Shown one piece after another: positions 1,691 to 29,432 of a stretch of DNA of 54,559 nucleotides; position 1 is the first letter of the stretch; each line of letters starts with the position of its first letter. The position numbers and the translations under genes were made by a program. This DNA is from a virus, in IMG/VR virus record IMGVR_UViG_3300045971_000096, positions 1 to 54,559 of that record, one strand, 5' to 3'. A model generated the notes under the pieces. It did no database searches and was not told where the DNA came from. It worked only from the letters and a program-made list of their open reading frames with translations.

Positions 1691-2583
1691 AATATAAAAT
1701 ACTTCACGTCTATTTTAAGAGCTGAGCAAAATTCCTGAAGCTCTTTGGTTGGCTTAGGCTGCATTCTAACTGCACAAAATTTACCATTGAACCAGATTTC
1801 TCTGTTGGTTGGAAATGGCTGACCTATTGTTTGGATTAAGAATCCATTCTCTCCAGGTGACATTAGAATATTGAGTGCATCAAATAAAGTTGGTGCATCT
1901 GTAGCATCCATCATCCCCGCATAATGCTTAAAGGCGCTCGTCTTTGTTTCTTCAATAGCCTTCTCGATCATAGGAAGAGTTATCTTCTTTAGACTGGGAA
2001 TGAAATTAGGAGTCTTCTTGCTGTTTGAAGCAGCAGCATTATCAAAGATAGCAGCAATCAATTGACCAACACCTCTAGCAATCCCAGTAGCATTGAGACC
2101 ACTACCAGCTGTTGGGCCCAAGCCAGAAATACCTTTCCACTTTCCTTGATGTATATCTGCTAATGGGCTAACAACTAACTTTGTTCCATTCTCTGGCAAA
2201 ATAACGTATGGGACTCCAGCATCACCATGAGTGTCACCAGCTTTTATCTTATCACTAGAGCAGATGAACGCTTTTTTGCGTGGTGCAATAGCGTTGATTT
2301 CTTTCCATGCAGGAAGAGCATCTAGTAATGAATGAAAATTGCCGCCATGATCTGAGTGAGCATCTCTAAAATCTTTTTCCTGATAACCATAATTGAAAAG
2401 GAATGCGCCTTTACCATGTGAGCCTAATCCTCTGTAAAGAACATGTCCATGTTCTAACTGTTTAACAGCATCAGTAAAATCATAGAGCTTCTTTTTTAAC
2501 CCGGCCAAGATAGCAGATGGGTGTCTATCCAAATACTCTGGTAGAGATTGCTCAGCTAGTAAAAATTCTTTGAAGCCTATCAT
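1687..2583 (-). CDS. Putative ADP-ribosyltransferase-like protein, possibly packaged and ejected
   Basis: This 298-aa protein has a T4-IPIII-like leader, MIGFKEFLLAE, ending in L-A-E (residues 9-11), a candidate prohead-protease site. Further in, VLYRG at 48-52 resembles the first arginine motif of R-S-E ADP-ribosyltransferases. FICSSD at 106-111 occupies the place of the S-T-S strand, and VPYVILPENGTKLVVSP at 124-140 resembles the VILPRG..V.V segment that follows the E-x-E motif in T4 Alt. The two catalytic glutamates are not obvious here, so activity is doubtful. Both ends overlap neighbours as ATGA inside the gp13-gp14-gp15 operon. The family call is inference from short motifs. Confidence 0.5.
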   Translation of the reverse strand: MIGFKEFLLAEQSLPEYLDRHPSAILAGLKKKLYDFTDAVKQLEHGHVLYRGLGSHGKGAFLFNYGYQEKDFRDAHSDHGGNFHSLLDALPAWKEINAIAPRKKAFICSSDKIKAGDTHGDAGVPYVILPENGTKLVVSPLADIHQGKWKGISGLGPTAGSGLNATGIARGVGQLIAAIFDNAAASNSKKTPNFIPSLKKITLPMIEKAIEETKTSAFKHYAGMMDATDAPTLFDALNILMSPGENGFLIQTIGQPFPTNREIWFNGKFCAVRMQPKPTKELQEFCSALKIDVKYFIL

Positions 2584-4481
2584 ACTGTCTTCTTGTTAAT
2601 GGATTGTTTTGTTGCAGACTGCAGAATGTTTCTTACAGAAGGTTTGTGCGAACTATAATCAGCTCGTCTATCTGTCTCTAAGTATAACCACTTGTTCTTC
2701 ACCATAGAGTATCTATACAGACGAGGCGCAATGTTTAAATGTGGTGCATAGTTAAGACGGAAAAAGTCACCATCATGCGCAGTGGTTAAATCTGGTAGTG
2801 CATAACCCTCACCATATGGTTCGCCACCCTTTGGTAAACCATCTTCAATGTATCCATTGAGTGTGCCATGTGGTCCTTGAGGTGGAGGATTGCCCTTAGG
2901 TGTTGAGGATTGCGGCTTGACAGGATATGGAACTGGTCCCATAGTAGTCCCATCATCTGAACCACGTTCTGGAACTGCATCTGCAGCTTCCTTCATTATC
3001 TCTTCCATCGAGGCAAGTGGCATGACATCTATCTGGTCTGCTACACCATTATTAAGAACTGAGTCAGCAATAAGATACTTCTGTGAATCAATAGTACCAA
3101 AGATGTCTCTATTTTCTTGTGAAGGTGTTGCTTGAGATGCAGAGAATCTGTATACTGTTGGGCGCCATGTAGTGCTGAACCCTTCTGATGCCCAACCAGT
3201 ATCAGTAACTTCCAAGAACTTTCTAACTGGTTTCAGGTTATGATCGTATTGCATTTCAGGAATGACTTCAACGATATCACCTACAATAATTGGTCTACCT
3301 AACTGCTGAACCATGGTCACGAATGACACAGTGAACGAGTATGAGTCAAGGATACTGAGACCGAATCTGCTAAGGTCAGACATTGAATCTGCAGGAGAGT
3401 ACTGCATCTTCATTAGAATAGGTTCAACACTATAATCACGATCTCTATTCTCATTAAAGAATAGGTCTTGAATATTATTAATATCTGTGGGCGCTGAATC
3501 TAGTACGTCCAATGCAAGCACTTCCCAATTTCCTGAACCTTGAAATAAGGTAGGAACTATACGTACTGCTTTTACTGTTAATGGAGTCTTAAAGCCCAAT
3601 GTTTGAGGAAGCGGGGATTGAACAAGATTAAATATGCCAATGCGTTTCCATACATAATTGACAGCAATAGTAAACATGTCACCGATAGCAAATGGAGCAA
3701 CTCCCTGCTCAAGGGTAACATTAATGATAGTGCTTAAAAATGGTACGCCTACGAATGCATTATTAAGCTGCAGAGTGCTTCCATCTGGCATTGATGCATG
3801 AACAGTAAATGCTGATGAAGATATAGCTACAATAGAAACAGTACATCTAGTAGCATTGGGACCAAATCCATTAAATGATATAGAACCATTACCTAAACCT
3901 GAATAAAGCGGATCAATAACCTCACATGATCCATCTGCAATTTCTACCTTGACCTGTCTAGCAAATTCATTGGGCGTATTCGCCTGTGTGATTTGTAATG
4001 CACCGACTTTAGTCCATTTAGCTTTCTCTGGAGCGTACTCGGTTCTTAGATTAACTAATCGTTTGATGCCAAAATCTATGCCAACATAAGCATTTGCAGC
4101 AACCGCTGCACCCGTTTGGAAAGATTTCCAAGAGGTGCTATTAATACCAGTTATCGGGAATCCAGGATAAGCCATAGATGCTATCACTGAACCTTCAGAT
4201 AAAATAGATCCGGTTCCTTGCTCGTGTACGCCTAATAACTTGTAAAGATTTATTGGGGCTCCAGATATACGAAGAGCTTCGGCTACGTAAGTTTCTTGTC
4301 TAAGCTGATCATTCTGCTCGCATAGATCCGGGTTAATGCTATTTAATTCCCATTCGCCTGACGGAAGACTTGGAGCTATATAAGGAGCAAGCGCAGGGTT
4401 ATTTAGTCCAGTTTGAACAGCTGAACCATTTGGATTGTTGATGCTGCCTGCACCATTTTCGCAAGGTAGTGTCTGTGGCAT
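2580..4481 (-). CDS. gp14: Neck protein gp14 with added domains
   Basis: At 633 aa it is far longer than T4 gp14 (256 aa). The part from about residue 365 to 480 looks like gp14: a FGLSILDSYSFTVSF strand, then GDIVEVIPEMQYD, then WRPTVYRFSASQ. Residues about 85-330 look like an inserted galactose-binding/discoidin-type region (SMAYPGFPITGINSTSW, later an AYVGIDFG strand and a GSGNWEVLALDVLD end). The C-terminus is proline- and glycine-rich and ends with a GDFFRLNY...NKWLYLETD motif like those in gp13. In T4, gp14 joins the head-completion ring to the tail. It starts 4 bases after gp13 and its stop overlaps the next start. Confidence 0.7.
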   Translation of the reverse strand: MPQTLPCENGAGSINNPNGSAVQTGLNNPALAPYIAPSLPSGEWELNSINPDLCEQNDQLRQETYVAEALRISGAPINLYKLLGVHEQGTGSILSEGSVIASMAYPGFPITGINSTSWKSFQTGAAVAANAYVGIDFGIKRLVNLRTEYAPEKAKWTKVGALQITQANTPNEFARQVKVEIADGSCEVIDPLYSGLGNGSISFNGFGPNATRCTVSIVAISSSAFTVHASMPDGSTLQLNNAFVGVPFLSTIINVTLEQGVAPFAIGDMFTIAVNYVWKRIGIFNLVQSPLPQTLGFKTPLTVKAVRIVPTLFQGSGNWEVLALDVLDSAPTDINNIQDLFFNENRDRDYSVEPILMKMQYSPADSMSDLSRFGLSILDSYSFTVSFVTMVQQLGRPIIVGDIVEVIPEMQYDHNLKPVRKFLEVTDTGWASEGFSTTWRPTVYRFSASQATPSQENRDIFGTIDSQKYLIADSVLNNGVADQIDVMPLASMEEIMKEAADAVPERGSDDGTTMGPVPYPVKPQSSTPKGNPPPQGPHGTLNGYIEDGLPKGGEPYGEGYALPDLTTAHDGDFFRLNYAPHLNIAPRLYRYSMVKNKWLYLETDRRADYSSHKPSVRNILQSATKQSINKKTV

Positions 4482-23073: not shown

Positions 23074-23733
23074 CTACATCAAACCACTCCACCTCGGGTT
23101 AAGATGGGAGTCCACATGCTCCACAATATACCCGTGATGGCGCTTATAAAATAATGCTTCCCATCTATTAGCACTAGCTGTTCCTAACTTACCAAGCTTA
23201 GGACGCAAGATGATAAAACTAATTTGATCTGGTGGGATAACTAGATTCTCTACATAGACTGGTTCTTGCGCATTTGCAAACTCAATCTTATGAAGTGTTC
23301 TAACTTCCTTCCGAATCATCTTATCATCTCTAAGTCTAGGATGAGCATCCTTTACTTCACTAATCTCAAATGTTCCAGACGGGAACTGTGCAGAGTGGTG
23401 AGAGCTAGGACTAGGAGTGATCAATGTTTTCTTTCCTTTGTTCTTAGAAAGATAACTAATGATAGCATCAATGAATGCTGTCCTAGCTCTGAAGCTAATC
23501 GCTGGTCTCTGCGTTCCTAAAGCTGCTTCCATTTGCTCTTTTGTAGGAGCAAAGAACATTGTATTGCCAAACTGCTTTGCAATCCATGGTCCTAAGAATG
23601 TTGATGCACGAGAATACTGTTCATAGTAGCATGCAACAATCTTTAGCAAGTCTGAAAACTCTGTCGTTGGACGGTAAACATCAAGCTTAGCATTCCAACG
23701 GTTAATATCTTCTACTGTTTTTACAGTATCCAT
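23074..23733 (-). CDS. Unknown protein of the DNA-metabolism operon
   Basis: This 219-aa protein is not assigned. It has a mixed helical N-terminus, a central Ser/Pro/His stretch (TPSPSSHHSAQFPSG), then PPDQISFIILRPKLG and a C-terminal NRWEALFYKRHHGY segment. The ribosome site (GGGAG) lies inside the 3' end of the HNH endonuclease gene, and its ATG overlaps that gene's stop as TAATG. This suggests that the gene adapted to, or was always next to, the homing insertion. Confidence 0.55.
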   Translation of the reverse strand: MDTVKTVEDINRWNAKLDVYRPTTEFSDLLKIVACYYEQYSRASTFLGPWIAKQFGNTMFFAPTKEQMEAALGTQRPAISFRARTAFIDAIISYLSKNKGKKTLITPSPSSHHSAQFPSGTFEISEVKDAHPRLRDDKMIRKEVRTLHKIEFANAQEPVYVENLVIPPDQISFIILRPKLGKLGTASANRWEALFYKRHHGYIVEHVDSHLNPRWSGLM

Positions 23734-24440
23734 TATACACTACTCCCATTATCTAGGTATAAGAAATGTGGCGAACCTGCCCCGCTCTTGCCCCATCCTA
23801 GATTAATAGCCATTTCTTTCTTGCTGGGATAAACTGTTGCACCATTATCTATAGTGCACTTACGACTTTTTGCTGCTTTCATTTTTTGAATAGCCTCCGG
23901 TGTTCTGTTTCTGGCTGCATGTCCTATTTTCTCTCTAGTTTCTAGGCTAGGATTTTTAGTCCATGAACTTACAATATCTCTAGCACTTTTATTTTTAAAC
24001 CTTTTATACTGTGCGTCGCTCATTTTTTTCCGAGTTTCTGCAGAAAACTCTCTTCCTTTCTGGGTTTCACTTAATAGCTTTCTGCTATATTCATACCACT
24101 TAGAATTTGGAAAATATCTTTCCTGCAGTTTACTATTTCGTATTAACATAAAGGAAAATGCATATGACATTTTGCATCTTTTAAGTCCGGTTGTCATTTT
24201 AGTTAGCAGCAAATGCACTATAAAATGTTCTCTAGCACTTAGACTAACTATATTATCTGCGGTATCTGGACCACCTAAAGATGATGGCACAATATGATGC
24301 CCCTCTGAATATGTTAACTTATCTATTCTTACTAATGCTTTTTCTATTAGCATTGCATACCATCGAGTATACTTATTCTTTTGAAACAGCGGCACGCCAG
24401 AACTCTGGATGTTTAATAAGTTCGTCAAAATACGAGACAT
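23733..24440 (-). CDS. HNH homing endonuclease
   Basis: Its 235 aa from the chosen ATG hold the family's NKYTRWYAMLIEKAL, then an HNH core SEGHHIVPSSLGG with DNIVSLSAREHFIVH, then two NUMOD3-like DNA-recognition helices (SAETRKKMSDAQ and SLETREKIGHAA), then a NUMOD1-like end (TVYPSKKEMAINLGWG). Free-standing HNH genes of this kind spread in T4-like phages by cutting uninfected alleles. The open frame extends back to 24467 and overlaps the upstream nuclease gene by up to 95 bases. The conserved part begins only after that overlap, so the exact start is open. It has its own late promoter. Confidence 0.88.
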   Translation of the reverse strand: MSRILTNLLNIQSSGVPLFQKNKYTRWYAMLIEKALVRIDKLTYSEGHHIVPSSLGGPDTADNIVSLSAREHFIVHLLLTKMTTGLKRCKMSYAFSFMLIRNSKLQERYFPNSKWYEYSRKLLSETQKGREFSAETRKKMSDAQYKRFKNKSARDIVSSWTKNPSLETREKIGHAARNRTPEAIQKMKAAKSRKCTIDNGATVYPSKKEMAINLGWGKSGAGSPHFLYLDNGSSV

Positions 24441-24969
24441 AGATTTTTCTTTCATTTGGAATTTCAAGGCTAAGCATTACACACGGGGTAGGTATAAATG
24501 TAGCAACAAGAATATTTATATTATTCCACTTGAAGATAAGAACAGGATTACGATTTATTTTTGCAGCATCTGTTTCTGCTTCTTTGATCCACTTAAAAAC
24601 ATTTGCTGTGCCTGATACTAGTTGCGGAAAACTGTCGGGAGTTTTATAGGCCTTACACTCTATAGAATGAAGGAATGTAAATCCTTCTTTCTTTTCATTT
24701 ATAGGAACAACGTCAGACGTGAAGAGGGCGAGTGCCTCATCACCAAACATCTGTCCAAACTTTTCAAAATTCTTTCCACCTGTCCTTGCACCAGAGCCAG
24801 GTGTGCGCATAAAATTCAACGGCTCTAAAGCAGCCGATAATTTTTTAGCTATTTGAAGCTCGAATCCCGAACCTTTTGCTTTACCCATTCCTGGCTTAAG
24901 CTTCCGCTTCTCTTTTTTAAGCGGTGTCTTTTGTGCTGGTTGTTCACCAATAGATAGTTGATCTGTCAT
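24373..24969 (-). CDS. PD-(D/E)XK nuclease, Holliday-junction-resolvase-like
   Basis: A basic N-terminus (1-30) in this 198-aa protein precedes a PD-(D/E)XK fold: KGSGFELQIAKKL with E37, MRTPGSGART, TSDVVPI with D86, and HSIECKAYK with E104 and K106. The later PVLIFKWNN strand is typical of archaeal-Hjc-like and phage resolvases. It probably cuts branched DNA from recombination before packaging, in line with gp46 and gp47 upstream; T4 uses endonuclease VII for this. The last 68-95 bases are shared with the homing-endonuclease frame. A paired inverted repeat lies in its leader. Confidence 0.72.
   Translation of the reverse strand: MTDQLSIGEQPAQKTPLKKEKRKLKPGMGKAKGSGFELQIAKKLSAALEPLNFMRTPGSGARTGGKNFEKFGQMFGDEALALFTSDVVPINEKKEGFTFLHSIECKAYKTPDSFPQLVSGTANVFKWIKEAETDAAKINRNPVLIFKWNNINILVATFIPTPCVMLSLEIPNERKIYVSYFDELIKHPEFWRAAVSKE
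24513..24520 (-). promoter_or_regulatory. Consensus late promoter inside the resolvase gene, upstream of the HNH gene
   Basis: The minus strand reads a perfect TATAAATA, 73 bases upstream of the chosen homing-endonuclease start. T4 homing genes such as I-TevI are also late-controlled, which makes this placement meaningful. Confidence 0.6.
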
Positions 24970-25356: not shown

Positions 25357-27117
25357 TTATGTTACTCCGAGTTCCGATCCACTCTCATCTAAAATCTTAG
25401 AGAACCCGTTTTCCTTGCGGATAATAACAGCTCTGTCAAACCGACCAACTGCTTCTGGTCTGTGAGAAATAATCCAAAGTCCAAGATGTTCATCTCGTGC
25501 TTTAGTCTTTAGCAGTTTGAAAATACTTTCAACACCAGACCCATCTAGTGAAGCATCGATCTCATCAATGAATAAACAATTTACCCATGCATGCAAATGA
25601 TGCAGCACATCTCTAAATGCTAATGATAGAGAAAGGTTAACACGTTTCTTTTCACCACCAGATAGATTACCGAAGTCTAACTCACGGCCATATTCAGAAA
25701 CGGTACAGCTCATATCATCGTCAAACTTTACAACGTGGGGTAGTCCAGTCTCCTTTGTATAACGCATAAGCTGCTTGTTAAGGAAAGGAATTGTCTTGCT
25801 GATAATCTTACGACGAATGAACGAGTTCTTATCTGTAAGAAGCTTCAACAGGAATTGCTGATGCTCTAACTCTTTACGGATGTTATCAAGATCAGAATAG
25901 GAAACAGTTTTGACTGCTTGCTTTTTCAGTTCTTCATGAGCCTCAATGTGAGGGTTAGTAGAAGCAACGAGATCGTCGATCTTAGACTGTGCTGTGAGAG
26001 CAGAACTTTCTGCTTTGAGTGCTGCTTCGAGGCTAGCAAACTTCATAACACCATCAGCTTGATAGCGCTGATCTTCTAACTCTACAGATTCAGCTGCCAT
26101 GTTATCAATCTTGAGAGTAAGAGCAGCAAGCTGAACCTTCTTACGTTCGAATGATTGCTGCTTCTCAACCAATTTATCTGCAGCTCCTTCATATGCTTGC
26201 AAACAGTAAGGGCACTTAGCTTCAATAAGGTGCTTCAGTTCTCCATCGAGCTTCTTTACATCACTTGTGAGAGTTACCTTTTCACTGCCGAGGATACGAA
26301 GCTGACTGTTGATTTCATTCTCTTGCTTCTTCAAGTCAGCCACAAGTGAATGGAGTTCTTTTTCCTCTTCCATGTTCACCGTGCTGATCAAAGCAAGATC
26401 ACCCTTAAGGGTTGCTACTTGCTTATCACGATCTTCATCCCAACGAACTACACGGGCTGCCGCATCTTTAAGCTGCCGATTGTAAAGAGCTACTTGACCT
26501 TCTTGTTCCTTGATGATAGCTTCTTGAATTGAAATGCTACCTTCAGTTGTCTTAATGATTTCCTTCAGCTTGATTGCTTTCTCTGTAAGCAAGGTGATGT
26601 TGAATAGCTCTTCAATCTGTGCACGCTGCTGTGAGACAGGCATCTGCAAGAATGGAGTTGAACTACCAGAGAAGATAACAACCTTCGTGAATAGTTCGTA
26701 GCTCATGCCAACTATCTCACATACAAACCGATCATTCTCAGCAACACTGTCAAGTGTTACGTCTTCACCATTCATTGAGATGTTGATGTTGAACGTTTCA
26801 CCGCGTTGACGATGGATTTCAAACTCGTCTTCACCCTTCTCAAAGATCAATCTAACTTCCATTAGAGTGTTCTTTGAACTGTTAGTGGAGTTGATTAGCT
26901 TCTGAAGAGAGATGTTGTCAAATGGTTTGTTATAGAGAGCATAACAGATTGCGTTGATGATCGTTGTTTTACCTGCACCGTTATTGCTTGAGGTATCAAT
27001 GTTCTCACCCTGAATAAGGGTGCTCATGATATCGGAAAGATCAATGGACGTAGCCACGGCTCCGAAACTCATGAAGTTTCGGACTATCAGCTCTTTGAAT
27101 TTAAAAGGTGTGCTCAT
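25357..27117 (-). CDS. gp46: Recombination endonuclease subunit gp46 (Rad50-like ATPase)
   Basis: This 586-aa protein (T4: 560) has Walker A NNGAGKTT (45-52), two long coiled coils around a CPYC zinc hook near residue 304, signature LSGGEKKR near 489, Walker B CLFIDEID near 515, and an ISHR H-loop. With gp47 it forms the Rad50-Mre11-like complex that resects DNA ends for recombination-dependent replication and degrades host DNA. Its ATG overlaps the stop of the terminase-like ORF, which separates it from gp47. Confidence 0.97.
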   Translation of the reverse strand: MSTPFKFKELIVRNFMSFGAVATSIDLSDIMSTLIQGENIDTSSNNGAGKTTIINAICYALYNKPFDNISLQKLINSTNSSKNTLMEVRLIFEKGEDEFEIHRQRGETFNINISMNGEDVTLDSVAENDRFVCEIVGMSYELFTKVVIFSGSSTPFLQMPVSQQRAQIEELFNITLLTEKAIKLKEIIKTTEGSISIQEAIIKEQEGQVALYNRQLKDAAARVVRWDEDRDKQVATLKGDLALISTVNMEEEKELHSLVADLKKQENEINSQLRILGSEKVTLTSDVKKLDGELKHLIEAKCPYCLQAYEGAADKLVEKQQSFERKKVQLAALTLKIDNMAAESVELEDQRYQADGVMKFASLEAALKAESSALTAQSKIDDLVASTNPHIEAHEELKKQAVKTVSYSDLDNIRKELEHQQFLLKLLTDKNSFIRRKIISKTIPFLNKQLMRYTKETGLPHVVKFDDDMSCTVSEYGRELDFGNLSGGEKKRVNLSLSLAFRDVLHHLHAWVNCLFIDEIDASLDGSGVESIFKLLKTKARDEHLGLWIISHRPEAVGRFDRAVIIRKENGFSKILDESGSELGVT

Positions 27118-27509
27118 TGAAAGAATTTAATTAGGTGACCTGAAGATACGATAGGTCTAAATGCATACATCCATTCTTTATCGATATTGACTTTACTATG
27201 GACAAACATCAGATCTAATTTTATACCCTGTAGTCTGTTAGGTCCATGCAGTAATTTTATCATACTTCCATTATCAAAGACAATGCAACCATTGGATTGA
27301 CCTCGGCGGGTAATGGTAGACTTCATCCAGTTTGGAACTGTTTTCTCTTCATCGAGTATCTCATGGAATATTTCAGCTAACCATACTTGCTCTGGAACTA
27401 CAATACCGATAGTCTTATTATCAGCACGCCAACAGTCTGCTAAAGTATAACGAATCATGTCAATGACAGTCATAGTATATGTGTCATCTAGAATATCAAA
27501 GTTGTCCAT
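27114..27509 (-). CDS. Stand-alone remnant of terminase large-subunit ATPase domain
   Basis: This 131-aa protein aligns along most of its length with the later half of the T4 gp17 ATPase domain. KTIGIVV (32-38) matches gp17 KAVGILA; FDNGSMI (78-84) matches LDNGSSI; RLQGIKLD matches AVRGNSF; and WMYAFRPIVSSG (113-124) matches SWLAIQPVISSG. The Walker A half is absent, and Walker B MIYIED is LMFVHS here, so both acids are lost. ATP hydrolysis is therefore unlikely. It is coupled between gp47 (14-base overlap) and gp46 (ATGA). A TTG three codons earlier is an alternative start. Its role is unknown. Confidence 0.72.
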   Translation of the reverse strand: MDNFDILDDTYTMTVIDMIRYTLADCWRADNKTIGIVVPEQVWLAEIFHEILDEEKTVPNWMKSTITRRGQSNGCIVFDNGSMIKLLHGPNRLQGIKLDLMFVHSKVNIDKEWMYAFRPIVSSGHLIKFFQ

Positions 27510-28542
27510 ATATTTCAATCAGCTTTTCAGCATTAATGGTTGTTGTTCCTGAGATACCAGTTTGAAGCATTCTGATAACAGCATCATTCAATGATCCCAT
27601 ATCAAAGTCTTCCATCTCTTCACCAGCAATTGCTTCCTTACGTTCAGCAAAGTTTTCTTCTAAAGAGAATTCACGCAGCCCCAGGGTCTTAATCATTTCT
27701 TCACGTAGCGTTTGCGCTTCTGAATAACCAATGTCGATGTCAATCAAACACCGAACACGACACTTAGCAGGAAAATCTAACTGTCCATTCAATACGTCAG
27801 AGAGTTTTACTTTACGGTACTTAGGGCAATCACCCCAATCAATAAAGGCCACATCGTCATCTCGTACATCCAAAATGCACATCCCACGGGCATCATCCCA
27901 TGCATCACCGTAGTCCATTGGGAAAGTGTTTCCGATATAAACGACATTGTCAATTGATTGTCTCTTGTGGTAGTGACCAGAGAAAATGTAAGTAGGTCCA
28001 GCAAACAACTTGTGGTCTGGTCCGTGCTCCATCTTACGATCTGTTCCAGTGATGATGAAGTTTCTAAATTCGAAGTGGCCTAGCCAATAAGGAAGTCTAG
28101 AATATTGTGCAAGGTCTGCATACTCATTCTTGAAAAGGAATGGGCACACTAGCATCTTGTCAATGACAGTTGGTTCATTCACTAATGTAACGTTAGCGTA
28201 CTGTTCAAAAATCTTAGTTGAAAATACTTTTCTATTCTCTCTGTGATATAGATCGTGGTTACCAATGATGATGTAAACAGGAAGTCCTAGAGAGTTTAGA
28301 TCTTCTAGAGCTTGCTGTGCATAGGTCATCGTCATTACGTTGACAGCATTCCGATTTTCAAACCAATCGCCCATGAATACTACGTGAGTGATGTCTCCGT
28401 CTTCACGGACATTCTTACAGAACCAGTGGACGAAGTCCACACAGTCCTGATTATGAATTGCAGAGTTGTTCTTCTTACCAAAGTGGATGTCGGTAAACAT
28501 CGCAACCTTTTTCATCGAAGAAACCTTCTTGCTTATTTGCAT
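27496..28542 (-). CDS. gp47: Recombination endonuclease subunit gp47 (Mre11-like)
   Basis: This 348-aa metallophosphatase (T4: 339) has motif I TDIHFG (D18, H20), motif II MGDWFENR (D59), motif III GNHD (N95-D97) and GHYHKR near 190. It is the nuclease partner of gp46. GGAGG just before the first ATG supports the MQISKK start; an ATG at codon 10 is possible. Confidence 0.96.
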   Translation of the reverse strand: MQISKKVSSMKKVAMFTDIHFGKKNNSAIHNQDCVDFVHWFCKNVREDGDITHVVFMGDWFENRNAVNVMTMTYAQQALEDLNSLGLPVYIIIGNHDLYHRENRKVFSTKIFEQYANVTLVNEPTVIDKMLVCPFLFKNEYADLAQYSRLPYWLGHFEFRNFIITGTDRKMEHGPDHKLFAGPTYIFSGHYHKRQSIDNVVYIGNTFPMDYGDAWDDARGMCILDVRDDDVAFIDWGDCPKYRKVKLSDVLNGQLDFPAKCRVRCLIDIDIGYSEAQTLREEMIKTLGLREFSLEENFAERKEAIAGEEMEDFDMGSLNDAVIRMLQTGISGTTTINAEKLIEIYGQL

Positions 28543-28553
28543 AGGTCCTCCGA

Positions 28554-29432
28554 TTACTTAGCGGTTTTCTTTGCGACAACTTTCTTTACAGCAACCTTCT
28601 TTGCTGGTTTTTCTATAACCTTCTTAGCAGCAGGCTTCTTTACAGATACAACTTTATGTACAGTTGATGCTTTTTGTGCTTTTGCGACAGGGGTCGCTTT
28701 GGCCGGAACACTTCGCACCTTCTTTGGCTTAGGTTCAGGTTTGGGTTTGATTGTAATGTTTCCATCTGCGTCAATCTCAATATCTTTCGGACCATATCGG
28801 GTGACGGGGCCTGGGACTCGGTGCTGATAGCGAAGTTTTGCTTCCTTCGGAGTCTTAGGAATAAATTCCACGTCGCCTGCTGGGACTGCGTCAACTTTAA
28901 GAACTGTTGCTGCTTCTGCATCCAGTTCCGCGATCTCGTTCTCATCCAATTCTGGTAGAAAGTATTCATCTGATTCCTTAATTTCAAAGTGAACTTCTTC
29001 CTTTTCGCCTTCACCAAAATTATAACTTGGGTTTGAACCTGCATCAATCAGAAGGGCATCACGAATGTTACGATGCTTCTTTTCGTCAGCAAGATACTGA
29101 AGGAAGGAGTTATGGATACCTGTGGTGTAATAGGAGAAGGGGTTGTTAGACTTTTCTGGATTAAACTTGAGTGCATTATTACACAAGTTCATCACAGCTG
29201 CAGAGACCATATCTTCGCGGAATGAATAGCCGATGAAGTTAGCCTTACGCGAATAACGTTCAGCGATCATCTGAATCATTCGGATTAGTTTGTCTGTTAC
29301 CTTGCCACCAGCTTTAGCTTCAATAACTGCTGGTAGAAGAACGCCATTGGTAACGTAATGTCCCTTAGTAGAAGTTGATTTCTCTCTCTTCTGTTTAGGC
29401 TTCTTTTCTTTTGTCTTTTCTTTGGTAATCAA
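28554..29432 (-). CDS. gp55: Late-transcription sigma factor gp55 with basic tail
   Basis: The first 125 residues of this 292-aa protein (T4: 185) match T4 gp55: GHYVTNGVLLPAVIEAK, MIAERYSRKANFIGYSFRED, and KFNPEKSNNPFSYYTTGIHN. gp55 directs host RNA polymerase to TATAAATA promoters, which are abundant in this window. An acidic-hydrophobic segment (SDEYFLPELDENEIAELD) could be a clamp-contact region. The last 90 residues are Lys/Ala/Pro-rich like histone H1 and absent from T4. The frame starts at TTG, with GGAG nine bases before it; the nearest upstream ATG is out of use because a stop follows. Confidence 0.9.
   Translation of the reverse strand: MITKEKTKEKKPKQKREKSTSTKGHYVTNGVLLPAVIEAKAGGKVTDKLIRMIQMIAERYSRKANFIGYSFREDMVSAAVMNLCNNALKFNPEKSNNPFSYYTTGIHNSFLQYLADEKKHRNIRDALLIDAGSNPSYNFGEGEKEEVHFEIKESDEYFLPELDENEIAELDAEAATVLKVDAVPAGDVEFIPKTPKEAKLRYQHRVPGPVTRYGPKDIEIDADGNITIKPKPEPKPKKVRSVPAKATPVAKAQKASTVHKVVSVKKPAAKKVIEKPAKKVAVKKVVAKKTAK

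Follow-up and report, generated by a model that had tools for sequence, protein, structure and literature searches.

A stand-alone terminase ATPase half-domain lacking the P-loop in a giant phage and its relatives in actinophages

The large terminase subunit (TerL) is described as universal in jumbo phages (PMC7824862) and as a trigger of bacterial immunity (PMC12931631). Among the systems closest to the gene product presented here, designated X, is one of the Emdodecavirus phages phiM12 and phiN3, where gp17.2 (194-196 amino acids), annotated as 'terminase large subunit', is a separately encoded TerL ATPase core that has no nuclease. Its gene directly adjoins terL, as do those of the motif-intact, ATPase-only paralogs in genomes G007 (238 amino acids) and G009 (247 amino acids), and it is the top match of the X profile among eleven reference phages (E-value: 2.7e-18). 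Furthermore, gp17.2 evolves faster than TerL, with 82.5% amino acid identity between phiN3 and phiM12 as against 99.1% for TerL (dN/dS: 0.205, dS: 0.48 for gp17.2; dN/dS: 0.044, dS: 0.105 for gp17), and the differing dS values hint at recombination. Unlike X, however, gp17.2 retains the GKTT and YIDE motifs, extends into the coupling motif and is placed between gp16 and gp17. The G007 and G009 paralogs are each preceded by an ORF (L068:2820-3395 and L072:189-758, respectively), which is presumably hydrolase-like by its GHSLGG motif.

Gene 344 of Sinorhizobium phage Phosso (L307:3309-4154, 281 amino acids), although its product is annotated as 'terminase small subunit', likewise encodes a TerL ATPase domain on its own, in which both Walker motifs are dead (GRSMGIT, ADNAS). 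It differs from X in its full ATPase-domain length and degenerate P-loop, and its long branch is separate from X in the tree. The original prediction held that no member of the kind had been described, but gp17.2 of phiM12 is annotated as a stand-alone TerL ATPase paralog, while P-loop-less kin are collected, unnamed, in PHROGs 6910 and 34977. Searches of the open-licence PMC literature gave no described half-terminase or terminase paralog among the matches listed.

Position and anatomy of X

The window, i.e. the whole 54,559-nucleotide stretch of viral DNA that was analysed, is a genome fragment and the complete record, on which a PF03237 search found no TerL. X denotes the 131 amino acid product of an ATG-initiated ORF in this window (27114..27509, minus strand). 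The minus-strand gene run is headed by a gp55-like late sigma factor gene (28554..29432; PHROG 234; E-value: 1.4e-26), followed by gp47 (SbcD/Mre11-like; 27496..28542; PHROG 100; E-value: 4e-60), X and gp46 (SbcC/Rad50-like; 25357..27117; PHROG 77; E-value: 1e-92). The ORF predicted between gp47 and gp46 is confirmed and overlaps both neighbours, sharing 14 nt with the 3′ end of gp47 (27496), while its stop codon and the gp46 start codon (27117) form an ATGA. A 14-nt overlap with gp47 is likewise found at the start of the L003 and L005 copies of X. Elsewhere in the window (23733-24467 and 24373-24969), the terminal part of a RusA-like resolvase gene is shared with an overlapping homing-endonuclease-like ORF (PHROG 655).

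Seven copies of X, from the window, L003, L005, L011, L012, L036 and a distant site in G006, make up the X family profile; in alignments A1-A3, L003 is represented without its first three residues. The Walker A P-loop is absent from all seven copies, the GKT pattern found in the L036 copy lying within its RG loop. In place of the Walker B D-E pair of TerL (T4 numbering), alignment puts H104-S105 in the window copy (27195..27200, minus strand), confirming the predicted loss of both motifs, and HR, HR, SS, WT, SK and DG in the other six. The catalytic glutamate is thus lost in 7/7 copies and the aspartate in 6/7, the G006 copy retaining the latter. By alignment to TerL, every copy stops on β4, which in the window is formed by codons 126-130 (LIKFF; 27120..27134, minus strand) according to both model and alignment, immediately before the coupling motif. 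The C-terminal RNase H-like nuclease domain is consequently absent.

The short copies, including that of the window, begin at about the helix following the P-loop, while the longer L012, L036 and G006 copies keep a counterpart of the TerL N-terminal helix and lack the stretch from β1 to the P-loop, which we take to include the adenine-binding region. Retained are α1, β2, a β hairpin, the RG loop, β3 and β4. The usual strand order of ASCE ATPases is 5-1-4-3-2, such that these losses leave X with the contiguous half 4-3-2.

The RG loop is the best-kept motif of the class. Its position is occupied in the window by Q94-G95 (27225..27230, minus strand), which aligns with R245 of T4 gp17 and R139 of the P74-26 terminase, the latter being the arginine of an NLRG motif aligned with the TerL RG. 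Three copies of X carry arginine here and three lysine, the window copy with its glutamine being the exception and, by that residue, not a candidate trans-arginine-finger donor. Together with the actinophage relatives described below (10/10), arginine or lysine occupies the position in 16/17 proteins, and the arginine is invariant in the nine rows of alignment A6. The P74-26 arginine is a biochemically confirmed trans finger, and T4 also has arginine at this position, whereas the finger of D6E and phi29 is placed elsewhere, between α3 and β4, as described in PMC5727402.

Descent, distribution and evolution of X

The original prediction likened X to the ATPase domain of T4 gp17, a resemblance that goes beyond chance. 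The single X sequence matches the terminase large subunit family PHROG 5989 (E-value: 2.1e-7; residues 26-111) and, by hhalign, a TerL profile (91.7%; E-value: 8e-7), and the seven-member family profile raises the latter to 98.6% (E-value: 1.3e-15), while 15 other ORFs from gp47/gp46 junctions, two of them near-copies, reach at most 2.2%. Some copies taken singly are weaker, with hhalign values of 16.7% (L011) and 51.4% (L012), the L012 copy alone giving no PHROG 5989 match. Among the profile databases scanned with copies of X, the best match was at most a terminase profile, and Pfam gave no credible match to X alone. The family profile matches TerL in all eleven reference phage records (T4 gp17 E-value: 3.2e-9) and same-clade TerL proteins at E-values of 8e-9 to 1e-15, and its PDB matches are to gp17 only (E-value: 3e-6).

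Structure prediction bears this out. An AlphaFold model of X based on six sequences (pLDDT: 84; pTM: 0.79) retrieved T4 gp17 as the four best Foldseek matches in the PDB (top E-value: 2.4e-7; TM-score on the query: 0.76), followed by other TerL proteins, and superposes on gp17 residues 155-286 with a Z-score of 11.7 (2.3 Å, 123 residues). The longer L036 copy behaves likewise (pLDDT: 83.7; Z-score: 14.4 over 161 residues). X thus has a fold related to the ASCE ATPase core of gp17, but as a partial core only; unlike gp17 and other TerL proteins, with which it shares fold and sequence descent, it has neither Walker A nor the Walker B carboxylates nor the coupling motif, and the remainder of the ATPase domain is missing along with the nuclease. 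Its descent from the TerL ATPase core is near certain.

Relatives were defined as contigs found by gp46 and gp47 searches whose gp47/gp46 junction is readable. Among loci L001-L046, 43/46 have complete junctions, with X present in eight and absent from 35; the eight represent five different sequences, those of L001, L002 and L003 being identical, as are those of L020 and L036. With L062 and 65 new complete contigs of L227-L306 (80 loci, less 12 incomplete ones and three repeats of earlier contigs), the total rises to 109 contigs besides the window, some of which may be near copies, and X lies at the junction in eight of these. The gp47-X-gp46 order recurs in related genomes, but most junctions among L001-L046 are without X. 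Junctions without X either have no ORF or are occupied by small ORFs of other kinds, and those tested are unrelated to X, including the junction ORFs of L235, L236, L258, L271 and L295. A 123 amino acid ORF preceding X in L036, taken by eye for a second copy, was dropped on the basis of an hhalign value of at most 0.7%. A weak candidate in G008 (L103:1450-1887; E-value: 3e-4; hhalign: 79.9%) was excluded from the count; it is the first of two adjacent ORFs with like ends (RR.FSSR; L103:1450-2401). An 80-locus search gave ORFs of at least 397 amino acids (TerL size), except for two known X copies and the contig-end-cut L162 and L183. Searches for close relatives that used the X copies of the window, L036 and L012 as queries gave nothing new.

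Several relatives show peculiarities of their own at gp47 and gp46. In L009, L010 and L046, some 0.5 kb of other sequence splits gp46 behind codon 50, and L034 has a nearly complete gp46 (2309-4078) that is preceded, at a distance of 1.4 kb, by a second version of its initial 50 residues (797-946). In Xanthomonas phage XacN1, gp47 and gp46 are fused in a single ORF of 1099 codons (L184:2986-6285). TerL is also split in some relatives, G001 encoding it in two ORFs (L065:1498-2382 and contig positions 174214-175353; see also L067:1153-2037) with intein-like ends. The N half breaks after EVLC, while additional N-terminal sequence in the second ORF runs up to ISHN, directly ahead of CEFISS, so that a split intein is possibly present in the packaging motor of G001. 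A similar break occurs in G011. Rfam at gathering thresholds gave no match in the window, L065, L067, L009 or L034.

Comparison of the window with G001 shows how fast X evolves. When 40 window genes, hand-picked from the ORF list, were compared, 38 were matched, some large ones in part only, and X had the lowest identity at 27.8% (gp46: 86%; gp47: 71%). In trees, the end branches of X span 1.1-3.8 changes per column and those of TerL 0.01-0.8. With branches this long, the tree is compatible with one origin or several: neither X as one clade (p = 0.42) nor X together with the motif-intact stand-alone paralogs (p = 0.31) was rejected. The dN/dS of X (0.27-0.44) is a rough value as dS is near saturation. 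Neutral simulation starting from the window X (200 ORFs) left 2, 1, 1, 0 and 1 ORFs open at 0.5, 0.9, 1.0, 1.7 and 2.0 changes per site, respectively, indicating that the intact copies are under selection, and the view of X as a pseudogene was rejected on these open frames. Identity alone is insufficient against that view, since the simulated mean of 36% at 0.5 changes per site exceeds the observed 28%; simulated identity falls below the latter only from 0.9 changes per site upwards (mean: 19%; maximum: 27.5%). X is therefore under purifying selection yet very fast-evolving. Profiles, fold and neutral simulation together uphold the predicted stand-alone, catalytically dead piece of a terminase ATPase, and show it to be kept by selection.

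P-loop-less relatives in actinophages

A fold search of viral models returned ten proteins of 105-185 amino acids among its best 50 matches, four of which are uncharacterised proteins of named actinophages. The gp1 protein of Arthrobacter phage Zucker is a member of PHROG 6910 (E-value: 6.8e-16), and by tblastn finds 65 records; among the 60 matches listed, 22 from Mycobacterium are annotated as the terminase itself. Ten actinophage records, picked for diversity and odd positions, were fetched. In seven of these with the gene (Zucker, Bauer, AbbyDaisy, Galaxy, Brynnie, Ryan and Aoka), it is found upstream of the genes for terminase, but all seven are Arthrobacter phages and as such do not represent seven independent cases. 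In MargaretKali the gene is at the right end next to an HNH gene, while in the Microbacterium phages Elva (gp30) and SanaSana (gp31), both of the genus Dismasvirus and hence one lineage, it directly follows a Cas4-family exonuclease gene with overlaps of 4 and 1 bases, respectively.

In a profile-profile comparison the actinophage proteins match the X family over 102 columns (98.2%; E-value: 3.6e-14), while their matches to jumbo and T4 TerL (95.3%; E-value: 2e-8) and to TerL of six Arthrobacter phages (96.9%; E-value: 1.7e-10) are poorer. The best PHROG of the eight members scanned is 6910 or 34977, both of 'unknown function'; no match was found in Pfam for the three scanned or in NCBIfam for the two scanned. 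PHROG 6910 in turn matches the L036, L011 and L078 copies of X at E-values of 1.8e-5 to 1.3e-4 and that of L005 at 0.017, with no match to the window, L003 or L012 copies taken alone. Across 26 records it mainly hits TerL, its only stand-alone hits being the L036-type copy and the G007 and G009 paralogs.

As with X, the proteins of PHROGs 6910 and 34977 lack the P-loop, start near α1, end at β4 by alignment and hold the RG loop. The P-loop pattern was found in TerL of 5/6 actinophages examined, Zucker TerL being the exception. The PHROG 6910 and 34977 proteins are unlike the window X in that the ten fetched are 108-120 amino acids long and all carry arginine at the finger position, and unlike X in the placement of seven of them upstream of terminase genes. 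The Walker B place is mostly proline or histidine, with D-E in SanaSana gp31 and D in Elva gp30. By its sequence relation, absence of the P-loop and end at β4, X belongs with this PHROG 6910-like class of P-loop-less half-domains.

Possible roles of X and its class

We tentatively suggest that X, as a half-subunit with no ATPase activity, takes a non-catalytic place beside TerL by docking on it, a reading that we hold possible rather than probable. In the terminase ring, the half kept by X would face the ATP of the neighbouring subunit and bear the trans-arginine finger, from which docking of X-like proteins on TerL would follow. Those bearing an arginine or lysine finger could fire or gate ATP hydrolysis by TerL, while the window version would cap the TerL ATP site, in favour of which its glutamine at the finger position speaks. 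Encoded within a recombination operon, X would delay or time TerL on DNA still under processing. Docking is supported by the kept RG arginine, homology and fold, the placement of most fetched actinophage kin upstream of terminase genes, the motif-intact ATPase paralogs that adjoin terL in phiN3/phiM12, G007 and G009, and the selection on X. Against it, the trans finger arginine of T4-type TerL is not settled, the window has glutamine, X sits with recombination rather than packaging genes, and the loss of Walker B is incomplete in the class (D-E in SanaSana gp31; D in Elva gp30 and the G006 copy). A motor subunit accounts no better for the fast evolution and patchy presence of X than does a role that is accessory or part of an arms race.

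These last features tie in with the main rival reading, of X as a TerL decoy that would mimic the conserved TerL ATPase surface and either occupy a TerL-sensing STAND protein of the host (Avs type) while leaving it untriggered, or shield TerL in some other way. Avs1-4 are described as recognising TerL, portal or another phage protein (PMC12931631), and superposition of the X model on chain 8dgc_E, a TerL bound by Avs3, gives a Z-score of 11.1 over 122 residues (L036 copy: 13.6 over 160), but other TerL chains score equally well. Of the 38 genes matched with G001, none is less conserved than X, and its junction presence is patchy; X is, however, missing half of the TerL ATPase domain, and in 7/10 records the actinophage gene precedes those for terminase. 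Furthermore, no anti-Avs decoy was found among the matches listed in a literature search, and PADLOC, which covers defence proteins rather than decoys, gave no match for eight proteins. We consider a decoy somewhat unlikely. The kin in packaging modules tilt the target of X towards TerL itself, and the fast evolution of X and its location among recombination genes tilt towards a decoy.

The tight overlaps in the gp55-gp47-X-gp46 order would suit an adaptor that keeps the TerL docking surface and links the gp46/gp47 or gp55-clamp machinery with TerL. T4 gp17 is reported to bind gp55, and concatemer packaging to be about 100-fold poorer in gp55-deficient extracts (PMC10138851, PMC3012670, PMC9026906). 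Elva gp30 and SanaSana gp31, directly behind and overlapping an exonuclease gene, fit the same role, but belong to one genus and lineage. An adaptor is nonetheless unlikely, given that X is absent from 35/43 complete junctions of L001-L046, that many small ORFs other than X occupy the junction, that PA5oct and RaK2 have the gp55-gp47-gp46 order without X, and that in G006 gp47 and gp46 directly abut with X more than 50 kb away. The predicted tie to gp46 and gp47, with binding and a link between end resection and packaging, is accordingly not borne out on the junction counts and the G006 location, and a partnership of X with them is unproven.

A functionless relic, either a decaying terL duplication or the separately coded half of a split TerL, would account for the lost catalytic motifs, fast divergence and patchy presence, but is very improbable as the X ORF stays open and ends at the same point although identity is down to 18-33%, the neutral simulation leaves 0-2 of 200 ORFs open and the phiN3/phiM12 paralog has a low dN/dS of its own. 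X as a stray half of a split TerL was rejected because relatives encode TerL elsewhere, the same record holding X and a complete TerL in G006 (intact) and G001 (two halves); in G011 and G020 only a broken N half of TerL was seen.

Returning to docking on TerL, a wider form of the proposal would have jumbo myoviruses and Arthrobacter and Microbacterium phages encode stand-alone trans-arginine-finger modules, half-domains without the ATP-binding side but with the face that would complete the active site of an adjacent subunit. These would switch the packaging motor in trans, GAP-like, with the arginine-less ones capping it and the gene neighbourhoods (terminase genes, SbcCD or Cas4-type end nucleases) marking the hand-over from end processing to packaging. 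We regard this broader version as decidedly doubtful.

The original prediction was right on homology and dead motifs and wrong on uniqueness, and the larger find is the class rather than the single gene. X of this giant phage is one of a wide, unnamed class of stand-alone, ATPase-dead terminase half-domains in unrelated phages, and this suggests that the packaging motor has an accessory component, or a decoy, that has been overlooked. Should these proteins regulate the motor, they would supply a missing part for the model of packaging initiation; if they are decoys, they would constitute an anti-defence class recognisable from sequence.
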